This document shows, in pieces, positions 20 through 9,913 of a stretch of DNA of 11,580 nucleotides; positions within the stretch are counted from its first letter, which is position 1; every line of letters begins with the position of its first letter. Source of the DNA: Lachnospiraceae bacterium UBA7480 (GTDB lineage Bacteria; Bacillota; Clostridia; Lachnospirales; Lachnospiraceae); assembly GCA_002479655.1 (NCBI GenBank), contig DLOQ01000161.1, positions 1-11,580 of the forward strand. Direction: 5' to 3'. A program made the position numbers and the translations under genes. The notes under the pieces were generated by a model. That model saw nothing but the letters and a program-made list of their open reading frames with translations. It was not told the origin of the DNA and searched no databases.

Positions 20-1078
20 TCATTTATTTTTTTTAGGCTTTTTTCCAAACATAAAACTAAGATATCCCTGAAACAGCCATATCAGAAAAATCTCTGATAC
101 AATCAATACAGTAAGCATTATGACATTTCGCAGGAAATCATGATCAAGGGCCGCAAAAACAAGATCCCCTGCCCATTCGGCAAGCGCCGCCACCTTAAAA
201 TCAAGACAGGTAGCCAACACGATCAGAGACGACTTTCCAAGAGCTTCCAACGGACTGCATTCATTGATCCATCTGCAAAGAAACAGCAGACCGCCACAGA
301 GGCATATAGCGGTCAGGAAATAAACTATCATCTCCCCCGTAAGCAGATAGCGGAAAGATATCGTGCCATCGGTTCTCTCCTGATTCTTCAAGGCAAGAAA
401 AGTCCCCAATCCGGTCAGAGCAGATCCGGACAGGATCATCACCAGTTTTTTGTTCTCCAGATATGCAAGCAGCATGGCAGCCCCTTCTCCTACTGCACAG
501 AAAAGCATGCCCACACAGCCGCGCCAGAAAGCATAGACGGCCTGTAGCAAGAACACCTCCACCGACATCCCCTTTCCGTAAAGATATACCGGAATCCCAT
601 TAATGCCGCAGATGACAGCCGCAAGGATCGCGGTAAGGATCAGTGCAATGAAATAAGGCAGCTTCCTGCGTATCACCCAATAGCCTGTCACGCCGATGAA
701 AAACACAGGCAGAAACCATAGAATATCACCACCATATAACGACAGCATATCCCAGATCATATCGATCGTATCTTCCCTTGTAAACCGTACAGGAGATATC
801 AGCATAACGGCACAATGACCGGCTACCACTAAAAAGCTCATCCAGCCGTATGGAATCATGATCTCCTTCGCAGCCCTTTTGGAGAACTCCGACACACTTT
901 GTTCCGATATGCTGTATTCCCTGCCATAAAGTCCCGCCGCGGCAAAAAACAACAGCAGCACAAAGGCATCCGCCCATATCTTAAACGCCTGTGGCATGAT
1001 CCCCGAATACCCCAGAAGCAGTATACATATACCAACTCCGGCATAAACATTGATATACCTGTTTTCGCTCTCCTGCAT
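20..1078 (-). CDS. Degenerate acyltransferase-3 (AT3) family membrane protein
   Basis: A 352-residue polytopic protein with about ten hydrophobic segments. It resembles the AT3 family, integral membrane enzymes that acylate cell-surface sugars or peptidoglycan. Visible AT3 landmarks are the first helix starting near NRYINVYAGVG, a GLY turn near 49-51, a basic stretch leading into IPY (about 65-77), and an ILWFLP-type helix start near 119-124. The family usually has a Lys/Arg and a His ten residues apart in the first helix (pattern KGxx...GH). Here those positions are Ala13 and Tyr24, so the catalytic motif appears lost. I chose ATG 1078 because GGAAGGGG lies just upstream and because an earlier start would run into recJ. 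It begins 31 bases after the recJ stop, so the two are probably co-transcribed. The membrane fold is clear; substrate and activity are unknown. Confidence 0.75.
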   Translation of the reverse strand: MQESENRYINVYAGVGICILLLGYSGIMPQAFKIWADAFVLLLFFAAAGLYGREYSISEQSVSEFSKRAAKEIMIPYGWMSFLVVAGHCAVMLISPVRFTREDTIDMIWDMLSLYGGDILWFLPVFFIGVTGYWVIRRKLPYFIALILTAILAAVICGINGIPVYLYGKGMSVEVFLLQAVYAFWRGCVGMLFCAVGEGAAMLLAYLENKKLVMILSGSALTGLGTFLALKNQERTDGTISFRYLLTGEMIVYFLTAICLCGGLLFLCRWINECSPLEALGKSSLIVLATCLDFKVAALAEWAGDLVFAALDHDFLRNVIMLTVLIVSEIFLIWLFQGYLSFMFGKKPKKNK

Positions 1079-1109
1079 AAACTTCCCCTTCCTTGTTTTT
1101 TGTGTACGC

Positions 1110-2909
1110 TCAGCAAAAATCTTCCATAATAAATTGAATATTTTTCTGTCCCTGCCATTCATTCCACTGCGGATAATACGCCGCGGAAAATTTCAAGCCT
1201 TCTCCTCTGCCGCGGAAAACCTCCCGCACCTTCTCCTCCCCGTAGCGGTCTGTCAGGAACTTTTTAAATTCTTTATTCTTTTCATAAAATAAAGTCAGCT
1301 CAGCTATCCCGCCGTCGGTATCCCTAATCTGATATTTGCCGACTTTTCCTTCCGCCCCCAGCATTCTTGCGCTGCACAGCAGCAGATCTCTCTTCGCAAA
1401 AAGCGGTTTCGGATTGCCATTGCCAAACGGCTCCAATAACGCAAACTGGTCTAACAGCTGCGGGGAAACATAAGAAAACGGCAATTCAGCGTCAATCCTG
1501 AGTTTCTCTCTGAAGTCCGCCTCCGTCAGTCTGCTGTTTTCATTCAGCCTTCTCCTCAATTCCGACAATCTATCTTTCGGCAGAGAAAATCCCGCCGCCT
1601 GTGCATGACCGCCAAATTTCGTAAAGATATCCTTAACCGCGGACAACTCCTGATACATATCATAGCTTTCTATCGATCTGCCCGACCCCTTAAGTCCATC
1701 CTCCGCATCCGTGATGACCAGCGTCGGATGATGATACCGTTCCCTGATCCTTCCGGCAACGATCCCCGCAATGCTTTCATGACATTCCGGCAGATAGATG
1801 ACATATACGGAAGCTTCATCATGCTCTCCCTTCTCGATCTGTTCCACCGCCTTTGACGTGCCTTGCTCGGTAATTGATTTACGGCTGTCATTCATCTCTT
1901 TCAGTTCCATGGCAAGACGCATTGCCTCAGATTCCTGCTCTGTCATCAGCAGCTCCAGCGCTCTGGATGCCGTATCGATACGCCCTGTTGCATTGATACA
2001 GGGCCCCAGCAGATATCCCAGATGATATGCCGTCACCGGCATCCCCCATCTGCCCATCACGCTAAGCAAAGCTTTCAGTCCAATATATGACGTATTACTC
2101 ATCAGCTGCAGTCCTGCTTTCACCAGGGCGCGGTTCTCATCCTTCAGCTCCATGACATCGCCCACTGTCGCAAATGCAGCCAACTGCAGCAATTCTTTAT
2201 CCAGCTGTTCCCAAGCTGTCTCCCTGCCGCTTCCCTCAAGAAGTCTCCCTGCATATCCTCCGTCCATCATGGCACGCATCAGCTTATATGCGACAAACGC
2301 TCCGCAAATACCCGGAAACGGGTATTCACAATCCTTCTGTTTGGGATCTATGACCGCCTCTGCCTGCGGTAAAAGCCACACCTTCTTTCCGTCCTTCTCC
2401 TCATAAGGCACCTCATGATGATCGGTAACGATCACGGTCATGCCAAGCTCATAGGCATAAGCAGTCTCATCCCTCGCCGCAATACCGTTATCACAGGTAA
2501 TGATCGTATCCACTCCGGCCTGTGCCGCGTCTTTAATCAATTCCCTGTTCAGTCCATATCCGTCCCTGATCCTGTGCGGAATAACAGCATCCACGTCACC
2601 ACCCAAAAATTTAAGTCCCTTTAAAAGGATCGCCGTAGCACATACGCCGTCAATGTCATAATCCCCAATCACGCGAAGCCGCTTCCCCTGCGAAATCTTC
2701 TCCTCCAGCTTCCCGCATGCAACGTCCATATCTTTTAACAGCATGGGATCATGAAAGCTTTTACTGTCGCCGTAAAGATACTGCTCGATCTCCTGCTCCG
2801 TAACAACTTCCCGGTTTCTGATAAGTCTGGCAAGCAGCGGATCGATATGATATTTTGACCCAATCGCCTGAAAATCCGCTCCTTTTGTCAGCAGAAGCCA
2901 CTGATTCAT
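1110..2909 (-). CDS. recJ: Single-stranded-DNA-specific 5'-3' exonuclease RecJ
   Basis: A cytoplasmic DHH-family exonuclease that degrades 5'-ended single-stranded DNA in recombination and repair, using two metal ions. The 599-residue protein has all landmarks in order: IGDYDIDG at 81-88, CDNG at 139-142, the DHH triad at 163-165, ATVGDV ending at Asp251/Val252, the GRIRERY stretch near 387-392, and the DHHA1 GGH motif at 433-435. A C-terminal OB-like segment follows, starting near a GNGNP loop. Length matches the short type (E. coli about 577 residues); longer Bacillus forms carry an extra C-terminal region. The reading frame continues 38 codons upstream, but ATG 2909 is preceded by GGAGG at a 6-base spacing and the protein then starts MNQWLLL, so the longer form is rejected. 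In many Clostridia recJ follows secD/secF; here a plus-strand gene and a GH25 gene lie between them. Confidence 0.97.
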   Translation of the reverse strand: MNQWLLLTKGADFQAIGSKYHIDPLLARLIRNREVVTEQEIEQYLYGDSKSFHDPMLLKDMDVACGKLEEKISQGKRLRVIGDYDIDGVCATAILLKGLKFLGGDVDAVIPHRIRDGYGLNRELIKDAAQAGVDTIITCDNGIAARDETAYAYELGMTVIVTDHHEVPYEEKDGKKVWLLPQAEAVIDPKQKDCEYPFPGICGAFVAYKLMRAMMDGGYAGRLLEGSGRETAWEQLDKELLQLAAFATVGDVMELKDENRALVKAGLQLMSNTSYIGLKALLSVMGRWGMPVTAYHLGYLLGPCINATGRIDTASRALELLMTEQESEAMRLAMELKEMNDSRKSITEQGTSKAVEQIEKGEHDEASVYVIYLPECHESIAGIVAGRIRERYHHPTLVITDAEDGLKGSGRSIESYDMYQELSAVKDIFTKFGGHAQAAGFSLPKDRLSELRRRLNENSRLTEADFREKLRIDAELPFSYVSPQLLDQFALLEPFGNGNPKPLFAKRDLLLCSARMLGAEGKVGKYQIRDTDGGIAELTLFYEKNKEFKKFLTDRYGEEKVREVFRGRGEGLKFSAAYYPQWNEWQGQKNIQFIMEDFC

Positions 2910-3122: not shown

Positions 3123-4289
3123 ATGAGTAATAATGAAATCAGTAAATCAAAGCAGAAACGTCTGGACATAGAAAATGCCAGAAAAGAACAGCAGAGGAAA
3201 AAGGCTCTGTCAAACCTGATCGCCATCCTGATCCCTGTAACGATCATATTAGTAATCTGCCTTGTCTATTTTATGTACCAGAGCAGGCAGTTAAACTATG
3301 GAAAATATCTAACTGAAGAAGGATTGATCAGTGATATTTCCCCTGCTGATTACGTCCAGTTTGACTATAAAAACCTTTCCTATAGCAGGGCGGAGCTTCT
3401 TCCCGATGATGCATTGGTAGAAGCCGATATCGCATCTACCTGTGAATCGCTTGCCGCGCTTTCCGATGATGCAGCACTGGTCACAGCCTCAGAAAATAAG
3501 ATCAGCCTTACCTATAACTCATTCATTGGAGGCATTTCCTGCAATGCCGTTGCACAGCAGGATTATACCATCGGCAGCGGTGCAGTCTCCGATCTGTTTG
3601 ACGAAGAGCTGATCGGTCACAAGCCCGGCGACAATTTTCAGACGGAGATTGCCTATCCTGCCGATTACCCCGATGCGGAAGTTGCCGGCGTAACCTTCAC
3701 CTACGATATCACCATCCACGGCATATATGTCGTTCCCGAATTTACTGACGAGCTGGTAGCCCTCAATTTTAGCAACATTGCCACTACGGCGGAAGGCTAT
3801 CGTGAATATCTTGTCCAGCAGTATTTTAAGGAAAATCTGCGCAATGCGATCACCGACTCGCTGAGAAACGGCGGCACCGTACTAAACTATCCTGCCGGTT
3901 ATCTGGAGAATGTGAAAAAGATCTACCGCACGCAAAACCAGCAGCAGTTTGATCAATATAACCAGATGTTCTATCAGAGCCTTGGATATTACGCATACAG
4001 CTCTGTATATGAAATGTACGGTTATTCCACCGAAGCCGAATACCTTGCGGCAATAGATTCCATAGCTGCCGACGACGTAGCTTATTATCTTGCCGTTATG
4101 ACTGTTTTCAAAAACGAGGGAATGACAAACACCAGAGAAGATGTGATGAACTACTACCTTGAACAGGGTTATGATACGGCTTCCTTCCAGGAACTGGAAA
4201 CACAATATCATTTCAATTATCTGGCGCAGATGGCGCTTGCCGATAAAGTAACGAACTATCTGATGGATACGGTGACGATCGTGGATTAA
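3123..4289 (+). CDS. Membrane-anchored trigger-factor-like FKBP peptidyl-prolyl isomerase / chaperone
   Basis: A 388-residue protein with a very basic N-terminus (residues 1-30), one membrane helix at about 31-52 and a long extracellular part. Residues 126-200 align with the FKBP domain of trigger factor: the stretch IGSGAVSDLFDEELIGHKPG, then YPADYPDAEVAGVTF, then a strand ending in PEFTDELVAL. The remainder (about 201-388) is helical, Tyr/Gln-rich and resembles the trigger factor C-terminal (SurA-like) substrate cradle. The N-terminal ribosome-docking domain of true trigger factor is absent and replaced by the anchor, so this should be an extracytoplasmic folding factor for exported proteins. 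The FIPGFE segment that helps form the FKBP active site is altered to AVSDLFDE, so isomerase activity is uncertain. ATG 3123 has GGAGG at 3112-3116, spacing 6. It is monocistronic, ending in the terminator at 4350-4378. Confidence 0.82.
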   Translation: MSNNEISKSKQKRLDIENARKEQQRKKALSNLIAILIPVTIILVICLVYFMYQSRQLNYGKYLTEEGLISDISPADYVQFDYKNLSYSRAELLPDDALVEADIASTCESLAALSDDAALVTASENKISLTYNSFIGGISCNAVAQQDYTIGSGAVSDLFDEELIGHKPGDNFQTEIAYPADYPDAEVAGVTFTYDITIHGIYVVPEFTDELVALNFSNIATTAEGYREYLVQQYFKENLRNAITDSLRNGGTVLNYPAGYLENVKKIYRTQNQQQFDQYNQMFYQSLGYYAYSSVYEMYGYSTEAEYLAAIDSIAADDVAYYLAVMTVFKNEGMTNTREDVMNYYLEQGYDTASFQELETQYHFNYLAQMALADKVTNYLMDTVTIVD

Positions 4290-4392: not shown

Positions 4393-5184
4393 TTATTCTT
4401 CCTCTGACAGACCATAGATCCGATAATCTTCCAGCTCCTGTTCATTTCCCCGGAAAACATCCAGATCAATATATCTTTCTTCTCCTGAATATCCTTCCAG
4501 CTCCCCTTTGTCGCTATACTGCCAGAAGCTCCATTTCCTGCCGCCGAAAAGCGGCCGGTAATAAATATTTCTGATCCACAGCGGATATTGCGTAAACTCT
4601 CCCCGAATCAATGTCCTGTATGCCGTCATGGTCGTATAGATGACCGGTTTGCATCCATAGTATGCTTCCAGTTCATCCAGCAAAAGCTGCAACTCGCTTC
4701 TGAGTGCGTCCACATCGACGCTGCCATCATAGCTGCTGTAATACTCGACATCCACAGCAGGCACAAGCATGCCGTCCCAGCTGCCCACCACCTCAATATA
4801 ATGATCCGCCTGCGTTTTTCCGCTGCTCTCAAAACTGAAGAAATGATACGCCCCGACTGCAAGACCGGTCTCCAGCGCGCCCGCCAGATTCTCCTCAAAG
4901 CGGATATCCTGATGGCTGCTTCCCTCCGTAGCTTTCATATACACAAACGAAAGATCGTCCGCCAGTACCGGCCAGTCAACATTCCCCTGATAATAGGAGA
5001 TATCCACACCCTTTACGCTATATCTTTCTGCCATCTTCAGGGCAAGCTTTATCCTTCCCTGATATACCCCCGCAGCAAATGCGGCAAGCGCGGCGATCAT
5101 TACAGCCAAAAGCACCAGCCACAATCCTGCTCTATGCTTTTTTGATTCTTTTTTTTTGATATCCTTAACCATCCTCTTACACAA
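4393..5184 (-). CDS. Membrane-anchored GH25 family lysozyme (N-acetylmuramidase)
   Basis: A 263-residue protein predicted to hydrolyse the beta-1,4 bond after N-acetylmuramic acid in peptidoglycan, acting outside the membrane. A Lys-rich N-terminus (1-18) is followed by one hydrophobic helix at about 21-41 with no clear cleavage site, so it is probably an anchor. The GH25 domain fills 57-250: GVDISYYQG with Asp61, YMKATEG near 82-88, GAYHFFSF near 111-118, the catalytic-type Asp-Val-Glu at 145-147, PLWIRNIYY, and the closing WSFWQYS...YIDLDVFRG region. No wall-binding repeats are present. The start is uncertain: TTG 5184 has only a weak AGAGA upstream, while ATG 5172 (four codons in) directly abuts AAGAGG. 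It begins 31 bases after the secDF stop with no terminator between, so it is likely the last gene of that transcript. Confidence 0.9.
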   Translation of the reverse strand: MCKRMVKDIKKKESKKHRAGLWLVLLAVMIAALAAFAAGVYQGRIKLALKMAERYSVKGVDISYYQGNVDWPVLADDLSFVYMKATEGSSHQDIRFEENLAGALETGLAVGAYHFFSFESSGKTQADHYIEVVGSWDGMLVPAVDVEYYSSYDGSVDVDALRSELQLLLDELEAYYGCKPVIYTTMTAYRTLIRGEFTQYPLWIRNIYYRPLFGGRKWSFWQYSDKGELEGYSGEERYIDLDVFRGNEQELEDYRIYGLSEEE

Positions 5185-5215: not shown

Positions 5216-7624
5216 TCAGTCATCATCTTCCTCCGTCTGCGGGAATTTATCCCGAAGCAGTCCCCACAACGGAGCTGCCAGAAAGATAGAAGAATATGTT
5301 CCACACAGGATACCGACCATCAGAGGAAGCGCAAATTCTTTGATGGAGGATACTCCCAGAATATAAAGCACCGCGATCATAATAAATGTTGTCAGGGACG
5401 TAAAGATACTCCTTGAGAGCGTCTGCGCCACGCTTTTATTGATGACATCATCCAGCGTCTCCCTGCGTCCCATATTGCGCTTGTTCTCACGCACCCTGTC
5501 AAAGATAACGATCGTTGCATTGATGGAATATCCGACGATCGTCAGCATACAGGCGATAAACGTAGAACCGACGCTCAATCTTATCACTGCATAGAATGTC
5601 AGCACGACCATAACGTCATGCAGAAGCGCAGCCACTGCGCTTGCACCGAACCTGATATCGCTGAACCGGAACCAGATATAGATCATCATGCAGAATGTCG
5701 CCACCAGCACGGATATGATGGCTTCCCGTTTCATTTCACCGGAAACCGTCGCACTGATCGTCTCCATCTCGATCTTATCCTGCGTTATGCCGAAATTTGT
5801 ATATAAAAGCTGTTCCAATGCTTCATGCTCTTCCGCTTCCAGCGCCCTTGTCTTAAAGATGATCTCATTGGTATCATTCACAGTCTGCCATGATACATTG
5901 GCATCATTCGTGATCTCCTCCAATCCGGTGACGATCACTCCGTCAACTACCTCCCTGTCAGGCACCGTGTCAAAAGTAACGCTTGTTGCCGTACCGCCGA
6001 CAAAGTCCAGACTGTAATTTAATACGGAACCGATCGTCGCCCTATTGACAAACAGCATAATGATCCCCACCAATATAATTGCGCCGGATATTCCAAAGAA
6101 CGTCTTTCTTTTTTTCACATACTCAAACGCCCTGCCGTCCTTCCCTGAGCCATACCATTTGACATCTCTAAGTCCCATTGCATACATGCTGTTGAGCAGC
6201 AGCTTTGTGATGACCAGCGCCGTAAACATGGATACGACAATACCCATTGCCAACGTATAAGCAAATCCTTTCAGGCTTCCGCTTCCCATGGCAATCAGCA
6301 CGATTGCGGAGATAAGCGTCGTGATATTACCGTCGATGATCGCGGAAAATGCCTTTGAAAATCCGCTTTTGATCGCGGACTGTACGGTCATTCCCTCCTT
6401 GATCTCCTCCCTAATCCTTGCAAATACGATAACATTGGCATCCACCGCCATACCGATGGACAGGATGATGCCTGCAATACCGGGCAATGTCAGCGTCACT
6501 TCAAAAATATTGATGCCAAGAAGTATCAGTATGACATATAAGATCAATGCCAGAGAGCTTGCCAGTCCCGGAATCCGATACACAACAATCATTAACAAAA
6601 TCACCAGTGCCAATCCGATCACGCCTGCCGTCAGGCTGGTTTTGATGGCATCCGTACCAAGCTGCGCCCCCACCACATTGGAACGCAGTTCCTGAAGCTC
6701 GACCTTCAATCCGCCGATACGGATACTCTGTGCCAGACGATCCGCCTCCTCAAAATTACGCATATTCGTGATCTGCGCCCTGCCGCCATCGATTCTGGAA
6801 TTGACATTCGGCACACTTAACATTTCTCCATCATAGTAGATCGCAATCGTACCATATAGTCCCGGCTTTCCCGCTGCCGCGCCGGTAGCGTCCCCAAATT
6901 TGGCTGCCGCCTCATCACTGAAAACAAGTTCAACGATATATTGTGTTCTGTTATAATCATCCGTATAACCGCCGCCCTTTGCTGATACCACATCCGTACC
7001 GCTTAAGATGGCGCTGCCGTCCGCCACAATCTCGTCAATGCTTCTGACCAGTTCATACTGCATTTTTGATGCCATCTGATCCCCAATCTCATAAGGGATC
7101 GGACTGCCGGCTTCATCCAGCATGATCTCATCCGTATCCTTATCATATAAATAAGCTGCACTCCCCATATAACAGAATAAGACGCCATCTTCTGAATATA
7201 CCTGCAGACCGCTTCCGGTCGTCATATTCTGATAATTCATATTGCCGTTTGAATCCGTCGCCCGGATAAAATATAACGATCCCGGAGAGCCCAGCTCCTG
7301 CAGTACCTTATTGGCATCCGTCACACCGGGGATCTCAATATTGATACGTCTGTCACCCTCCTGATACACCTGCGCTTCGGTAGAAAATTTATCAATACGC
7401 CTTCTCAGTTTATAGATCGTATCGCTGATATCCTCTGCGGTAGGCGTTTCTTCACCGACCGCCTCGTAGGTGATGCTGACACCGCCCGCCAGATCAAGTC
7501 CCAGCTTTATCCGCTCCATAGAACCGGCTTTTTCCGGTCCGACGCCAACCAGCGCAATATACCCAAGCGCCGCCGTAATGACGATAAATGCCAGAAAAAC
7601 CAGATAACCTGTCCCTTTTTTCAT
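5216..7624 (-). CDS. secDF: Fused protein translocase subunit SecDF
   Basis: An 802-residue fusion of SecD and SecF, the proton-motive-force-driven accessory part of the Sec translocon that pulls exported proteins from the outer face. The SecD half shows a first helix (about 7-27), LGLDLAGG at 41-48, an external domain to about 325, QSIRIGGLKV near 299-308, and helices containing SIGMAVDANVIVFARIREE (389-407). The SecF half starts near 505, with DFVGG at 540-544, an external domain to about 630, and helices containing HDV (669-671) and VGYSINATIVIFDRVREN (697-714). Asp395 and Asp670 are candidate proton-pathway residues by family position. A single-chain SecDF also occurs in Bacillus; many Clostridia keep secD and secF separate. 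ATG 7624 has an AAAGGAAAGG site 8 bases upstream. It follows scfB after 123 repeat-rich bases. Confidence 0.97.
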   Translation of the reverse strand: MKKGTGYLVFLAFIVITAALGYIALVGVGPEKAGSMERIKLGLDLAGGVSITYEAVGEETPTAEDISDTIYKLRRRIDKFSTEAQVYQEGDRRINIEIPGVTDANKVLQELGSPGSLYFIRATDSNGNMNYQNMTTGSGLQVYSEDGVLFCYMGSAAYLYDKDTDEIMLDEAGSPIPYEIGDQMASKMQYELVRSIDEIVADGSAILSGTDVVSAKGGGYTDDYNRTQYIVELVFSDEAAAKFGDATGAAAGKPGLYGTIAIYYDGEMLSVPNVNSRIDGGRAQITNMRNFEEADRLAQSIRIGGLKVELQELRSNVVGAQLGTDAIKTSLTAGVIGLALVILLMIVVYRIPGLASSLALILYVILILLGINIFEVTLTLPGIAGIILSIGMAVDANVIVFARIREEIKEGMTVQSAIKSGFSKAFSAIIDGNITTLISAIVLIAMGSGSLKGFAYTLAMGIVVSMFTALVITKLLLNSMYAMGLRDVKWYGSGKDGRAFEYVKKRKTFFGISGAIILVGIIMLFVNRATIGSVLNYSLDFVGGTATSVTFDTVPDREVVDGVIVTGLEEITNDANVSWQTVNDTNEIIFKTRALEAEEHEALEQLLYTNFGITQDKIEMETISATVSGEMKREAIISVLVATFCMMIYIWFRFSDIRFGASAVAALLHDVMVVLTFYAVIRLSVGSTFIACMLTIVGYSINATIVIFDRVRENKRNMGRRETLDDVINKSVAQTLSRSIFTSLTTFIMIAVLYILGVSSIKEFALPLMVGILCGTYSSIFLAAPLWGLLRDKFPQTEEDDD

Positions 7625-7688: not shown

Positions 7689-7772
7689 GTCCTGAATGTC
7701 ATTCTCAAACGTCATGTACGTCATCCTCAGACATCCTGTAGCCATTCTCAAGTGTCCTGTATGCCATTCTCA
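7686..7772 (-). repeat. Four-unit 21-22 bp tandem repeat spanning the scfB stop codon
   Basis: Four adjoining units on the minus strand, each starting TGAGAATG or TGAGGATG: 7772-7751 (22 bases), 7750-7730 (21), 7729-7708 (22) and 7707-7686 (22). The consensus is about TGAGAATGRCATACAGGACG plus two variable bases. Unit 1 is read in frame as ENGIQDT at the ScfB C-terminus. Because the unit is not a multiple of three, the TGA opening unit 2 comes into frame and ends the protein. Units 2-4 are untranslated. There are no spacers, so this is not a CRISPR array. Confidence 0.9.
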
Positions 7773-9142
7773 GGCATCCCATCCTCCAAATCAGCTTCCG
7801 CCGCCTTCATCATGATTGCACATTCAACTCTCTTTTTCTGCAAAGTACAACCGATCTCATATGCGGCATGGATATCACCATGAAAGTTATATGCATTTGC
7901 CGCGCATCCGCCGCTGCAATAAAACTTCGCAAAACAATTTTTGCACGCTTCCTTGGAATAGACGTTGCACTCATGGAATATGCTGCGGATCTTTTCATTC
8001 GTAATGCCATCATAAACATTACCCATCAGGAAATCTTTCTGTCCGACGAACTGATGACAGGGATAAAAATCCCCACCCGGCGTCACCGCCAGGTATTCAC
8101 AGCCGGAACCACAGCCTGACAAGCGCTTTGCCACACAGGGACCTCCTTCCAGATCGATCATAAAATGAAAGAAGTTAAAGGAATTCCCCTCTTTTTTACG
8201 TTTCAGCATTTCGGCGGCAAGTTCGTCATACTGCCGAAGCAAAACTGGAACATCCTCCTCCCTAAGAGCGTAATCAGCCTCAGGCGGCGCTACCACCGGC
8301 TCTACCGAGATCTGTTTGAAGCCAAGATCGGCAAGATGCAGCACATCCTTGGAAAAATCAGTATTATAATGCGTATAAGTCCCCCGCACATAATAATTCG
8401 TCTGATTCCTTGACTCCGCCGCCTTGATATATTTCGGAAGTATCCTCTCATAACTCCCCTGTCCTCCGCGGTCAGGACGCATACGGTCATTGACCTCTTT
8501 ACGTCCATCGATGCTGAGAACAAGATTGCTCATCTCCTGATTGACAAATTCCATGATCTCATCTGTCAAAAGCGTACCGTTTGTCGTCAGCGTAAAGCGG
8601 AATTTTTTATTGTTCGGCTTCTCCAGACTGCGTCCATAGGCAACCAGCTGTTTTACGACCTCCCAATTCAACAGCGGCTCCCCGCCGAAAAAATCCACTT
8701 CCAGATTGACCCTGTTTCCGGAATGTTCCACCAGATAATCCAATGCTTTTTTACCGACCTCAAGGCTCATCAGTTCCCTGCTTCCATGATACTCTCCCTC
8801 TCCCGCAAAGCAATAACGGCAGGCGAGGTTACAGTCATGGGCAACATGAAGGCACATTGCCTTAACAACGGTCTCCCGTTTCATAAACTGCTCAATATAG
8901 CCCTCATAAATATCATCCGTAAAGAGCATATTCTCTTTTACCAGTTCCAGAATCTCATCCAGCGGTTCCGCCAATGCAGTATCCGCATATCTCTTTCTGA
9001 GCGTTTCTTCATCTGTTCCTGAAGCAAGTTCCTTTTCTATCTCCGGGATCAGACCATATACCGCGTCATCTACTACATGGACGCTTCCGCTATTAACATC
9101 TAATACAATATTATAACCATTACTCTGATATTGATGAATCAT
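7748..9142 (-). CDS. scfB: SCIFF/ranthipeptide maturase, radical SAM-SPASM protein ScfB
   Basis: A 464-residue enzyme expected to use S-adenosylmethionine and an iron-sulfur cluster to form a Cys-to-Thr thioether in the ScfA peptide. An N-terminal leader-binding (RRE, PqqD-like) region fills about 1-90. The radical SAM motif C-x3-C-x2-C is at Cys104, 108 and 111, followed by FFGGEPLLNW (151-160) and TLTTNGT (184-190). The C-terminal SPASM/twitch region holds the auxiliary-cluster cysteines 336, 344, 348, 362, 392, 400, 403, 409, 413, 432 and 441, with KNCFAKFYCSGGC characteristic of the family. All motif cysteines are present, so it should be active. The residues after about 450 form a non-conserved tail ending in the tandem repeat. 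The ATG at 9142 has only a weak AGGA site about 10 bases upstream, in contrast to the strong site of scfA. Confidence 0.96.
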   Translation of the reverse strand: MIHQYQSNGYNIVLDVNSGSVHVVDDAVYGLIPEIEKELASGTDEETLRKRYADTALAEPLDEILELVKENMLFTDDIYEGYIEQFMKRETVVKAMCLHVAHDCNLACRYCFAGEGEYHGSRELMSLEVGKKALDYLVEHSGNRVNLEVDFFGGEPLLNWEVVKQLVAYGRSLEKPNNKKFRFTLTTNGTLLTDEIMEFVNQEMSNLVLSIDGRKEVNDRMRPDRGGQGSYERILPKYIKAAESRNQTNYYVRGTYTHYNTDFSKDVLHLADLGFKQISVEPVVAPPEADYALREEDVPVLLRQYDELAAEMLKRKKEGNSFNFFHFMIDLEGGPCVAKRLSGCGSGCEYLAVTPGGDFYPCHQFVGQKDFLMGNVYDGITNEKIRSIFHECNVYSKEACKNCFAKFYCSGGCAANAYNFHGDIHAAYEIGCTLQKKRVECAIMMKAAEADLEDGMPENGIQDT

Positions 9143-9242
9143 AATATATTTTTCCTATCTATATACATATCTTCAGCATATAACCGGACTTTGACTTATC
9201 AAGACATAAATATTTCATGATACATGCCGGTATTCTATCAAA

Positions 9243-9269
9243 GAAGCAGCGACTTATCACCGCTGCTCC
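9243..9269 (-). terminator. Hairpin (partial terminator or mRNA stabiliser) between scfA and scfB
   Basis: On the minus strand GGAGCAGCG pairs with CGCTGCTTC around a 9-base loop: nine pairs, one of them G-U. Only TTT then mixed bases follow, so any U-tract is weak. It starts 24 bases after the scfA stop, a good place for partial termination or 3'-end protection of a short scfA message. Confidence 0.65.
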
Positions 9270-9293
9270 CCAACACATTCATATTCATATGAA

Positions 9294-9437
9294 TTACTTC
9301 TGATTCTCACAACTCTGATTTCCAACGGTACAGGATGTCTTGCATGCTGACTGGCAGGAAGTCTGACACTCTCCGCAGCCGCCCTTCTTCATGCTTTTCT
9401 TAAAATCCCTCGTATTTAATGTTTTAATATGCTTCAT
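9294..9437 (-). CDS. scfA: SCIFF ranthipeptide precursor ScfA (six Cys, 47 residues)
   Basis: The precursor peptide modified by ScfB. The 47-residue protein starts MKHIKTLNTRDFKKSMKKGG, a basic leader, and continues into a core with exactly six cysteines at 21, 24, 28, 32, 36 and 43, ending ENQK. The core segment ACKTSCTVGNQSC is typical of SCIFF peptides. Thr at 26, 34 and 37 are possible thioether acceptors. In the characterised Caldanaerobacter homologue I recall the bridge joining Cys32 and Thr37, and both residues occur here at those same numbers. I chose ATG 9437 because GGAGG (9451-9447) lies 9 bases upstream; an in-frame ATG at 9443 is only 3 bases from it. No double-Gly cleavage site in a bacteriocin-like context is evident, although a GG sits at 19-20 just before the first Cys. 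It has its own promoter. Confidence 0.95.
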   Translation of the reverse strand: MKHIKTLNTRDFKKSMKKGGCGECQTSCQSACKTSCTVGNQSCENQK

Positions 9438-9504
9438 ATCCATCTTCCTCCACTTTGTCCGTAAATATTATTGATATTTTTGTCCATCTCATAGAACATA
9501 AAGC

Positions 9505-9547: not shown

Positions 9548-9913
9548 TTATCTGGAAATCATACCACCCAGCATCCCGCCGCCGCTGCACAGGCACAATA
9601 CCGTCACAAATTCCCTGTTGATCTCAAATGCGGAACCATCAACGATCATGGAGATCAGCGTCAGCAAAAGAAAGTATGCCAAGCCCATCAGCAGACCGAA
9701 TAAAAACCGATGATGACCGGCACGGCTTCCGGCAAGCATCCCGGAGACCAGGCAGGATACGACATATACCACGATGATCCCTACGGACACCACTCCGGGC
9801 GCCAGATCAAACCAGTATAACAAAAACGACATGACGATCAGCATCATCGCCGTGATTGCATACGAGATCAATAAATATTTTAATAAATGCAGGTTCAGAT
9901 CCTTATTTTCCAA
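9548..9913 (-). CDS. Small four-helix membrane protein, TIGR04086 type
   Basis: A 121-residue, very hydrophobic protein with four predicted membrane helices, at roughly 10-33, 38-62, 68-91 and 101-120. Sequence cues such as LKYLLISYAIT, VVSVGIIVVYVVSCLVSGMLAG and LFGLLMGLAYFLLL match the TIGR04086 family, which I recall as Firmicute-specific and often found beside the SCIFF/Sec region in Clostridia. Its function is unknown. The start is TTG 9913, with AAGGAG at 9929-9924 and a 10-base spacing; no ATG fits. Its leader shares GACAAAGTGRAGGA with the scfA leader. scfA begins 111 bases downstream with its own promoter, so the two are probably only partly co-transcribed. A role in membrane handling of the SCIFF product would be guesswork based on position alone. 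Confidence 0.8.
   Translation of the reverse strand: MENKDLNLHLLKYLLISYAITAMMLIVMSFLLYWFDLAPGVVSVGIIVVYVVSCLVSGMLAGSRAGHHRFLFGLLMGLAYFLLLTLISMIVDGSAFEINREFVTVLCLCSGGGMLGGMISR

Follow-up and report, generated by a model that had tools for sequence, protein, structure and literature searches.

Organization of the SCIFF locus

The window, that is, the whole stretch of 11,580 nucleotides analyzed here, carries on its minus strand, in this order, genes for a TIGR04086 membrane protein, a SCIFF precursor (scfA), a SCIFF maturase (scfB), SecDF and a glycosyl hydrolase 25, with a spacer of 151 nt between scfA and scfB, which lie on the same strand (Table 1).

Table 1. Coordinates of the genes, codons and signals of the SCIFF locus in the window
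Feature	Position	Strand	Basis or remark
TIGR04086/DUF3792 membrane protein, directly upstream of scfA	9548..9913	-	profile matches
Shine-Dalgarno-like GGAGG	9447..9451	-	sequence; 9 nt from the ATG at 9437
scfA, SCIFF precursor, 47 aa	9294..9437	-	family models and translation
scfA leader, residues 1-20	9437-9378	-	
scfA core, residues 21-47	9377-9297	-	
scfA stop codon	9296-9294	-	
Cys32 codon TGC	9342..9344	-	thioether donor as reported for homologues (PMC8326336, PMC8172795)
Thr34 codon ACA	9336..9338	-	likeliest acceptor; Thr in 249/249 domains, and accounts in reviews
Thr37 codon ACC	9327..9329	-	acceptor named in the initial annotation; 239/249 domains
Hairpin between scfA and scfB, 13-pair stem (G-U counted)	9241..9271	-	folding
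scfB, radical SAM/SPASM SCIFF maturase, 464 aa, CxxxCxxC motif	7748..9142	-	TIGR03974 and CteB match
SecDF, directly downstream of scfB	5216..7624	-	profile matches
Glycosyl hydrolase 25, after SecDF	4393..5184	-	profile matches

The product of scfA, MKHIKTLNTRDFKKSMKKGGCGECQTSCQSACKTSCTVGNQSCENQK, matches the full length of both SCIFF family models, TIGR03973 (91.1 bits; cut-off 50) and PF13165 (90.3 bits; cut-off 27). The SCIFF precursor at 9437..9294 is thus confirmed: the initial annotation, made from the sequence alone, had described a 144-base gene for a 47-residue peptide with 6 cysteines and had proposed the family-model search, which places both models far over cut-off; the strand is minus. 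Counted on the translation, the cysteines are residues 21, 24, 28, 32, 36 and 43, in line with the 6 cysteines per approximately 45 residues by which SCIFF precursors are recognized, and the core threonines, read from the start at 9437, are residues 26, 34 and 37. A longer reading frame of 49 aa begins at 9443, but by eye its ATG lies only 3 nt from the GGAGG; the distance to the ATG of the 9437 start is 9 nt, which makes 9437 the better start. Over core residues 20-43, comparison with 248 other SCIFF domains gave identities of 92.7, 93.3 and 45.4% at codon positions 1, 2 and 3, respectively, and 2,929 synonymous versus 538 non-synonymous codon changes, indicating that scfA is a translated gene under purifying selection. 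Database searches returned 6,192 homologues at E<=1e-3, the best named ones being from Lachnospiraceae; as several homologues already bear the NCBI family name, the suggestion that gene callers could overlook so short a gene holds only in part. Within the genome of the window (a 3.0 Mb draft of ~83% completeness), scfA is the sole SCIFF match.

The maturase expected beside the precursor is also present at the locus: ScfB matches TIGR03974 with 763.1 bits (cut-off 425), and its score against the look-alike exception model NF040492 (not_ScfB), 600.7, falls below the cut-off of 855. The closest known system is CteA/CteB (thermocellin; PDB 5WGG) from Clostridium thermocellum. ScfB aligns with CteB (5wgg_A) over 449 residues at 614 bits, and CteA residues 1-21 (5wgg_B) align without gaps to residues 1-21 of the window peptide; the solved CteA chain consists of these residues only, so that the likeness covers the leader register and not the core. 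Among the 249 SCIFF domains compared here, core residues 20-43 have no deletion and 1 single-residue insertion (between residues 21 and 22, in L223), and this near-gapless core together with the gap-free leader fits the window peptide to the CteA numbering. A second likeness, drawn via reviews, is to Tte1186a/Tte1186 from Caldanaerobacter subterraneus, the residues given there being Cys32, which is the fourth cysteine, and Thr37 (PMC8326336, PMC8172795). Freyrasin (PapA/PapB) is another ranthipeptide, and its maturase is related to ScfB, which scores 279 bits against the PapB model, under the cut-off of 340; the window core lacks aspartate, whereas freyrasin is described as having 6 Cys-Asp bridges (PMC8326336).

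Distribution of the precursor-maturase pair

SCIFF was present in 140 of the 150 genomes of the window's family; in a sample of 249 genomes from across the phylum, 201 had a match over cut-off, and 14 control genomes had none. The window locus is therefore an ordinary, complete member of the named family, and the SCIFF pair is carried by most clostridia. This does not bear out the earlier view that a locus from this lineage is useful for its origin; the locus itself adds little, and its value lies in the comparative test it brings. Precursor and maturase occur together across the genomes tested, as has also been stated for 234 loci analyzed previously (PMC5300114). When SCIFF-bearing genomes were re-searched, 20 of 21 had a maturase over cut-off, 19 of the 21 having been chosen since the stretch around SCIFF had no strong maturase match; the remaining genome, G166, is an 82%-complete draft with SCIFF at a contig end. 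Conversely, none of the 10 SCIFF-less genomes of the family has a maturase over cut-off, nor do 18 of the 20 that were tested among the 47 SCIFF-less genomes of the phylum, the genes of the other 2 both being cut at a contig start. SCIFF-less genome G192 encodes a 241-bit maturase relative, under cut-off.

Residue counts refer to 249 SCIFF domains from 248 loci (247 fetched plus the window), 186 from outside and 63 from inside the window's family; a second copy of the window (L001) was left out, and G284, under cut-off, was dropped. The outside domains cover 186 of the 197 non-family phylum genomes over cut-off, and the family share (63 of ~148 matches) deliberately includes the lowest-scoring matches, so that variants are over-represented. 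All 249 are matches to one family model, which very divergent peptides would escape, and the relatives counted are not independent samples.

A hairpin between scfA and scfB

The scfA-scfB spacer of the window contains a strong stem and a terminator-like site; for the spacer as a whole, the folding z is −1.85, with 11 of 200 shuffles folding as well. Strong stems, counted as at least 9 bp with at least 4 GC, are common at this position among 181 loci with N-free spacers of 60-320 nt. Within the family, they occur in 45 of 58 spacers versus 3 of 58 upstream controls of equal length and 5 of 290 shuffles, and elsewhere in 55 of 123 spacers versus 8 of 123 upstream controls of equal length and 17 of 615 shuffles. 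The spacers had a median folding z of −3.76 for family loci and −1.79 for the others, compared to −0.42 and 0.04 for the respective upstream stretches. The stem sequence is variable, with GCAGCG or CGCTGC found in 17 of the 58 family stems, and Rfam searches at gathering thresholds yielded no match in the window. The hairpin would likely serve uneven expression of precursor and enzyme: located 3′ of scfA, it would allow the precursor to be made in excess of the enzyme.

Thr34 as the probable acceptor of the thioether

The published assignments of the SCIFF bridge disagree. According to 2 reviews, studies in vitro of Tte1186a and of CteA placed it between Cys32 and Thr37, whereas CteA co-expressed in Escherichia coli carried a Cys32-Thr34 bridge via C-gamma; one bridge per peptide is reported for both Tte1186a and CteA, and the discrepancy for CteA is left unexplained in the accounts given there (PMC8326336, PMC8172795). 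The initial annotation had matched Cys32 and Thr37 of the window peptide to the bridge of the Caldanaerobacter homologue. The positions do coincide, the numbering being that of CteA, but the co-expression result points to Thr34 instead. It had also offered Thr34 and Thr26 as acceptors for the other cysteines; the reviews put Thr34 on Cys32 itself, and Thr26 is unlikely to serve family-wide because it is threonine in only 150 of the 249 domains, another residue occupying the position in 99.

Conservation differs among the candidate residues. Thr34 is invariant (249/249), whereas Thr37 is threonine in 239 domains and lost in 10; all 10 of the latter retain Thr34 and 8 retain Cys32. Cys32 is conserved in 247 domains, Cys36 in 236, and Cys21, Cys24, Cys28 and Cys43 in all. 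Since the entire block around Thr34 (Gln29-Ser30-Ala31 and Lys33-Thr34-Ser35) is likewise invariant in the 249 domains, the invariance of Thr34 is not specific to an acceptor role and is no proof by conservation alone. The 2 domains without Cys32, L184 (genome G014) and L133 (genome G216), have Ser32 in place of the reported donor, along with Ala37 or Ser37; both loci keep Thr34 and encode maturases over cut-off, which speaks against the Cys32-Thr34 reading.

By analogy with the homologues, Thr34 is a likelier partner of Cys32 than Thr37 in the window peptide, and a Cys32-Thr34 bridge is most probable. We consider it probable, overall, that the window holds a ranthipeptide locus of the canonical SCIFF (ScfA/ScfB) kind, the product of which carries one Cys32-Thr34 thioether and keeps its other cysteines, with the hairpin skewing expression. 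As judged from the homologues, ScfB would bind the leader (residues 1-20) and use its radical SAM centre to join the Cys32 sulfur to C-gamma of Thr34, yielding a single small thioether loop with a loss of 2 Da. Cys21, Cys24, Cys28, Cys43 and usually Cys36 would be left in the form of thiols, disulfides or ligands, conserved because the product itself needs them to function.

A SCIFF type with glycine at position 37

A pattern scan of named genomes for SCIFFs with glycine in place of Thr37 matched at least 119 stretches, and the 80 listed loci were read; the pattern fixes residues 29-41, including Cys32, Thr34, Cys36 and Gly37, and no conservation is inferred there. Among the matches listed, the hosts include Faecalibacterium prausnitzii, Gemmiger formicilis, Anaerococcus and Emergencia. 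The Thr37Gly type belongs to the same peptide family as the window peptide and has the same adjacent maturase, found on the same strand in 56 of 56 of the loci read that have at least 1600 nt downstream, but it differs in having Gly at position 37 and in its maturases, which group apart from that of the window. In all 30 genomes searched (drafts, many of them metagenome-assembled), it is the only SCIFF type over cut-off: 28 have 1 SCIFF match and 2 have a tandem pair, in one case accompanied by a third match under cut-off. The 30 loci returned contain 32 domains, all with Cys32, Thr34 and Gly37. A literature search, with most subscription journals outside its reach, found no description of this type.

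In a tree of 102 maturases, the 9 from Thr37-lacking loci, representing 4 family codes, cluster together (SH-aLRT 100) next to ordinary maturases from the window's family, a pattern suggesting that the Thr37-lacking system has spread between families. When the tree was extended to 161 rows with 59 maturases of the 80 listed loci, all 68 Thr37-lacking maturases fell on one side of a branch (SH-aLRT 99); both trees were built with a simple model and a short search and include rows of odd composition, and the second also joins 2 long branches. This group, found in common gut bacteria, is a natural experiment on the published disagreement between Thr34 and Thr37, for it lost Thr37 while keeping Thr34, the maturase and, with 2 exceptions seen, Cys32.

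The same observations bear on the alternative that the bridge is Cys32-Thr37 and that Thr34 owes its conservation to being recognized by the maturase or a target. The 2 in vitro studies of homologues (via PMC8326336, PMC8172795) and the presence of Thr37 in 239 of 249 domains agree with it, but co-expression in E. coli re-assigned the bridge to Thr34 (PMC8326336, PMC8172795), and a group with 68 of 68 maturases on one side of a branch (SH-aLRT 99) has dispensed with Thr37 and retained the maturase, Thr34 and mostly Cys32. We therefore regard a Cys32-Thr37 bridge as unlikely.

Two further features were seen at Thr37-lacking loci. Tandem double SCIFF domains in one frame, all of the Thr37Gly type, occur in L180 (6968-7264), L343 (959-1339), L348 (2261-2617) and L331 (1272-1559). 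An Orn/Lys/Arg decarboxylase-like gene belonging to a single cluster lies near SCIFF on the same strand in 5 of the 9 Thr37-lacking loci (L186, L187, L188, L180 and L133); this cluster is found in only 6 of 127 wide loci, the sixth being L070, and its members in L187, L188, L133 and L070 were scanned against Pfam.

The remaining cysteines and the role of the product

Besides the single Cys32-Thr34 bridge that we favor, several thioethers could be formed, with Cys28, Cys36 and other cysteines linked to Thr26 and further acceptor residues; heterologous expression would then have revealed only the first thioether. There are indeed 5 further cysteines, 4 of them invariant, and Cys36 is lost in 13 of the 99 domains without Thr26 and in none of the 150 with it, as a Thr26-Cys36 link would predict; in addition, position 26, which is outside the search pattern, is threonine in all 83 Thr37Gly domains of the listed loci. 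By contrast, Thr26 is absent from 99 of 249 domains, the 9 of 13 Cys36 losses that were placed in the tree fall in only 2 lineages, so that the association amounts to few independent events, and the reviews give one bridge each for Tte1186a and CteA (PMC8326336, PMC8172795). A multiply bridged product thus appears about as improbable as a Cys32-Thr37 bridge. The 13 five-cysteine SCIFFs (L156, L167, L178, L193, L200, L201, L214, L125, L126, L137, L139, L154 and L194) have Ile or Leu in place of Cys36, and in each of them residue 26 is Val or Asn.

The core is far more conserved than the rest of the system. Compared to the window, the 186 non-family domains have a median identity of 87.5% (71-96) over core residues 20-43 and 33.3% over the leader, 2 segments that are similarly short yet very different in conservation. 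Across 157 loci with a comparable maturase, median identity was 91.7% for the core versus 46.5% for the maturase, and the core was the more conserved in 157 of 157, although a short core set against a long enzyme is an uneven comparison. That the core is conserved even more strongly than the enzyme speaks for one conserved partner or fold rather than for a strain-specific signal, and, as far as sequences can tell, would fit an internal or universally recognized product better. A more specific proposal makes SCIFF a housekeeping peptide, as opposed to a bacteriocin or a signal that evolves fast, in which a Cys32-Thr34 staple sets the fold and Cys21, Cys24, Cys28 and Cys43 bind a metal or Fe-S cluster or act in redox chemistry, the naturally successful Thr37Gly clade showing the published Cys32-Thr37 bridge to be inessential. 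Such a fold would explain why conservation is higher in the core than in the maturase acting on it; nevertheless, we hold the proposal as a whole to be doubtful, somewhat more so than either alternative bridging pattern. The peptide matches a Cys-rich stretch of epoxyqueuosine reductase weakly (E 0.017 for the whole, 0.33 for the best stretch), and its AlphaFold model, built from 43 aligned sequences, was uninformative (pLDDT 51.5, pTM 0.25).

As to published roles, a single study cited in reviews connects SCIFF with quorum sensing, which PMC8326336 lists, and with sporulation: disruption of the genes in Clostridium beijerinckii is described as lowering sporulation genes and raising the agr locus (PMC8102284). 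Apart from SecDF, the 10 window proteins scanned against NCBIfam and Pfam gave no match to exporter or leader-peptidase families.

Neighboring genes

Neighbors were sought with profiles built from the window's own proteins, which may miss distant ones. Among loci with enough flank, those with SecDF near SCIFF number 20 of 28 in the family and 13 of 103 elsewhere, and those with TIGR04086 24 of 55 and 21 of 175, respectively; clusters of tgt and yajC are found near SCIFF in 18 and 15 of 127 wide loci. In 6 loci from 2 families (L135, L176, L232, L205, L206 and L213), SCIFF lies by TIGR04086 and SecDF, and the maturase is elsewhere in the genome. At the level of genomes, TIGR04086 is present in 26 of 30 SCIFF-bearing versus 16 of 30 SCIFF-less genomes, that is, 9 of 12 versus 1 of 10 within the window's family and 17 of 18 versus 15 of 20 outside it. 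TIGR04086 is thus associated with SCIFF, which favors some connection of SCIFF to that locus; as an exclusive partner it was rejected, given its presence in the 16 SCIFF-less genomes and in the control Bacillus subtilis, in which SCIFF was not found.

That the SCIFF product works with the Sec translocase, its locus adjoining genes for SecDF, YajC and TIGR04086, is in our estimate the least probable of the alternatives: the frequency of SecDF in the family, the 6 loci that keep SCIFF, TIGR04086 and SecDF without a strong maturase match alongside, and the co-occurrence of TIGR04086 within the family speak for it, but most loci outside the family lack these neighbors, TIGR04086 is nearly as frequent there without SCIFF and occurs in B. 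subtilis, and a minority of loci have tgt and yajC close by too. An old, inherited string of genes, given that most families lack the arrangement, explains the neighborhood as well as a functional link.

Elsewhere in the window, a 380-aa protein (20-1162, minus strand), hydrophobic by eye, has no match in NCBIfam, Pfam or PHROGs. PHROGs searches with 4 window proteins besides the SCIFF peptide gave no match for one and assigned the other 3 to lysis, sigma-factor and unknown families. The gene at 3123-4289 (plus strand) has a weak trigger-factor match (76 bits, below the cut-off of 180) and encodes an N-terminal hydrophobic stretch, and its product is possibly a membrane-anchored foldase.
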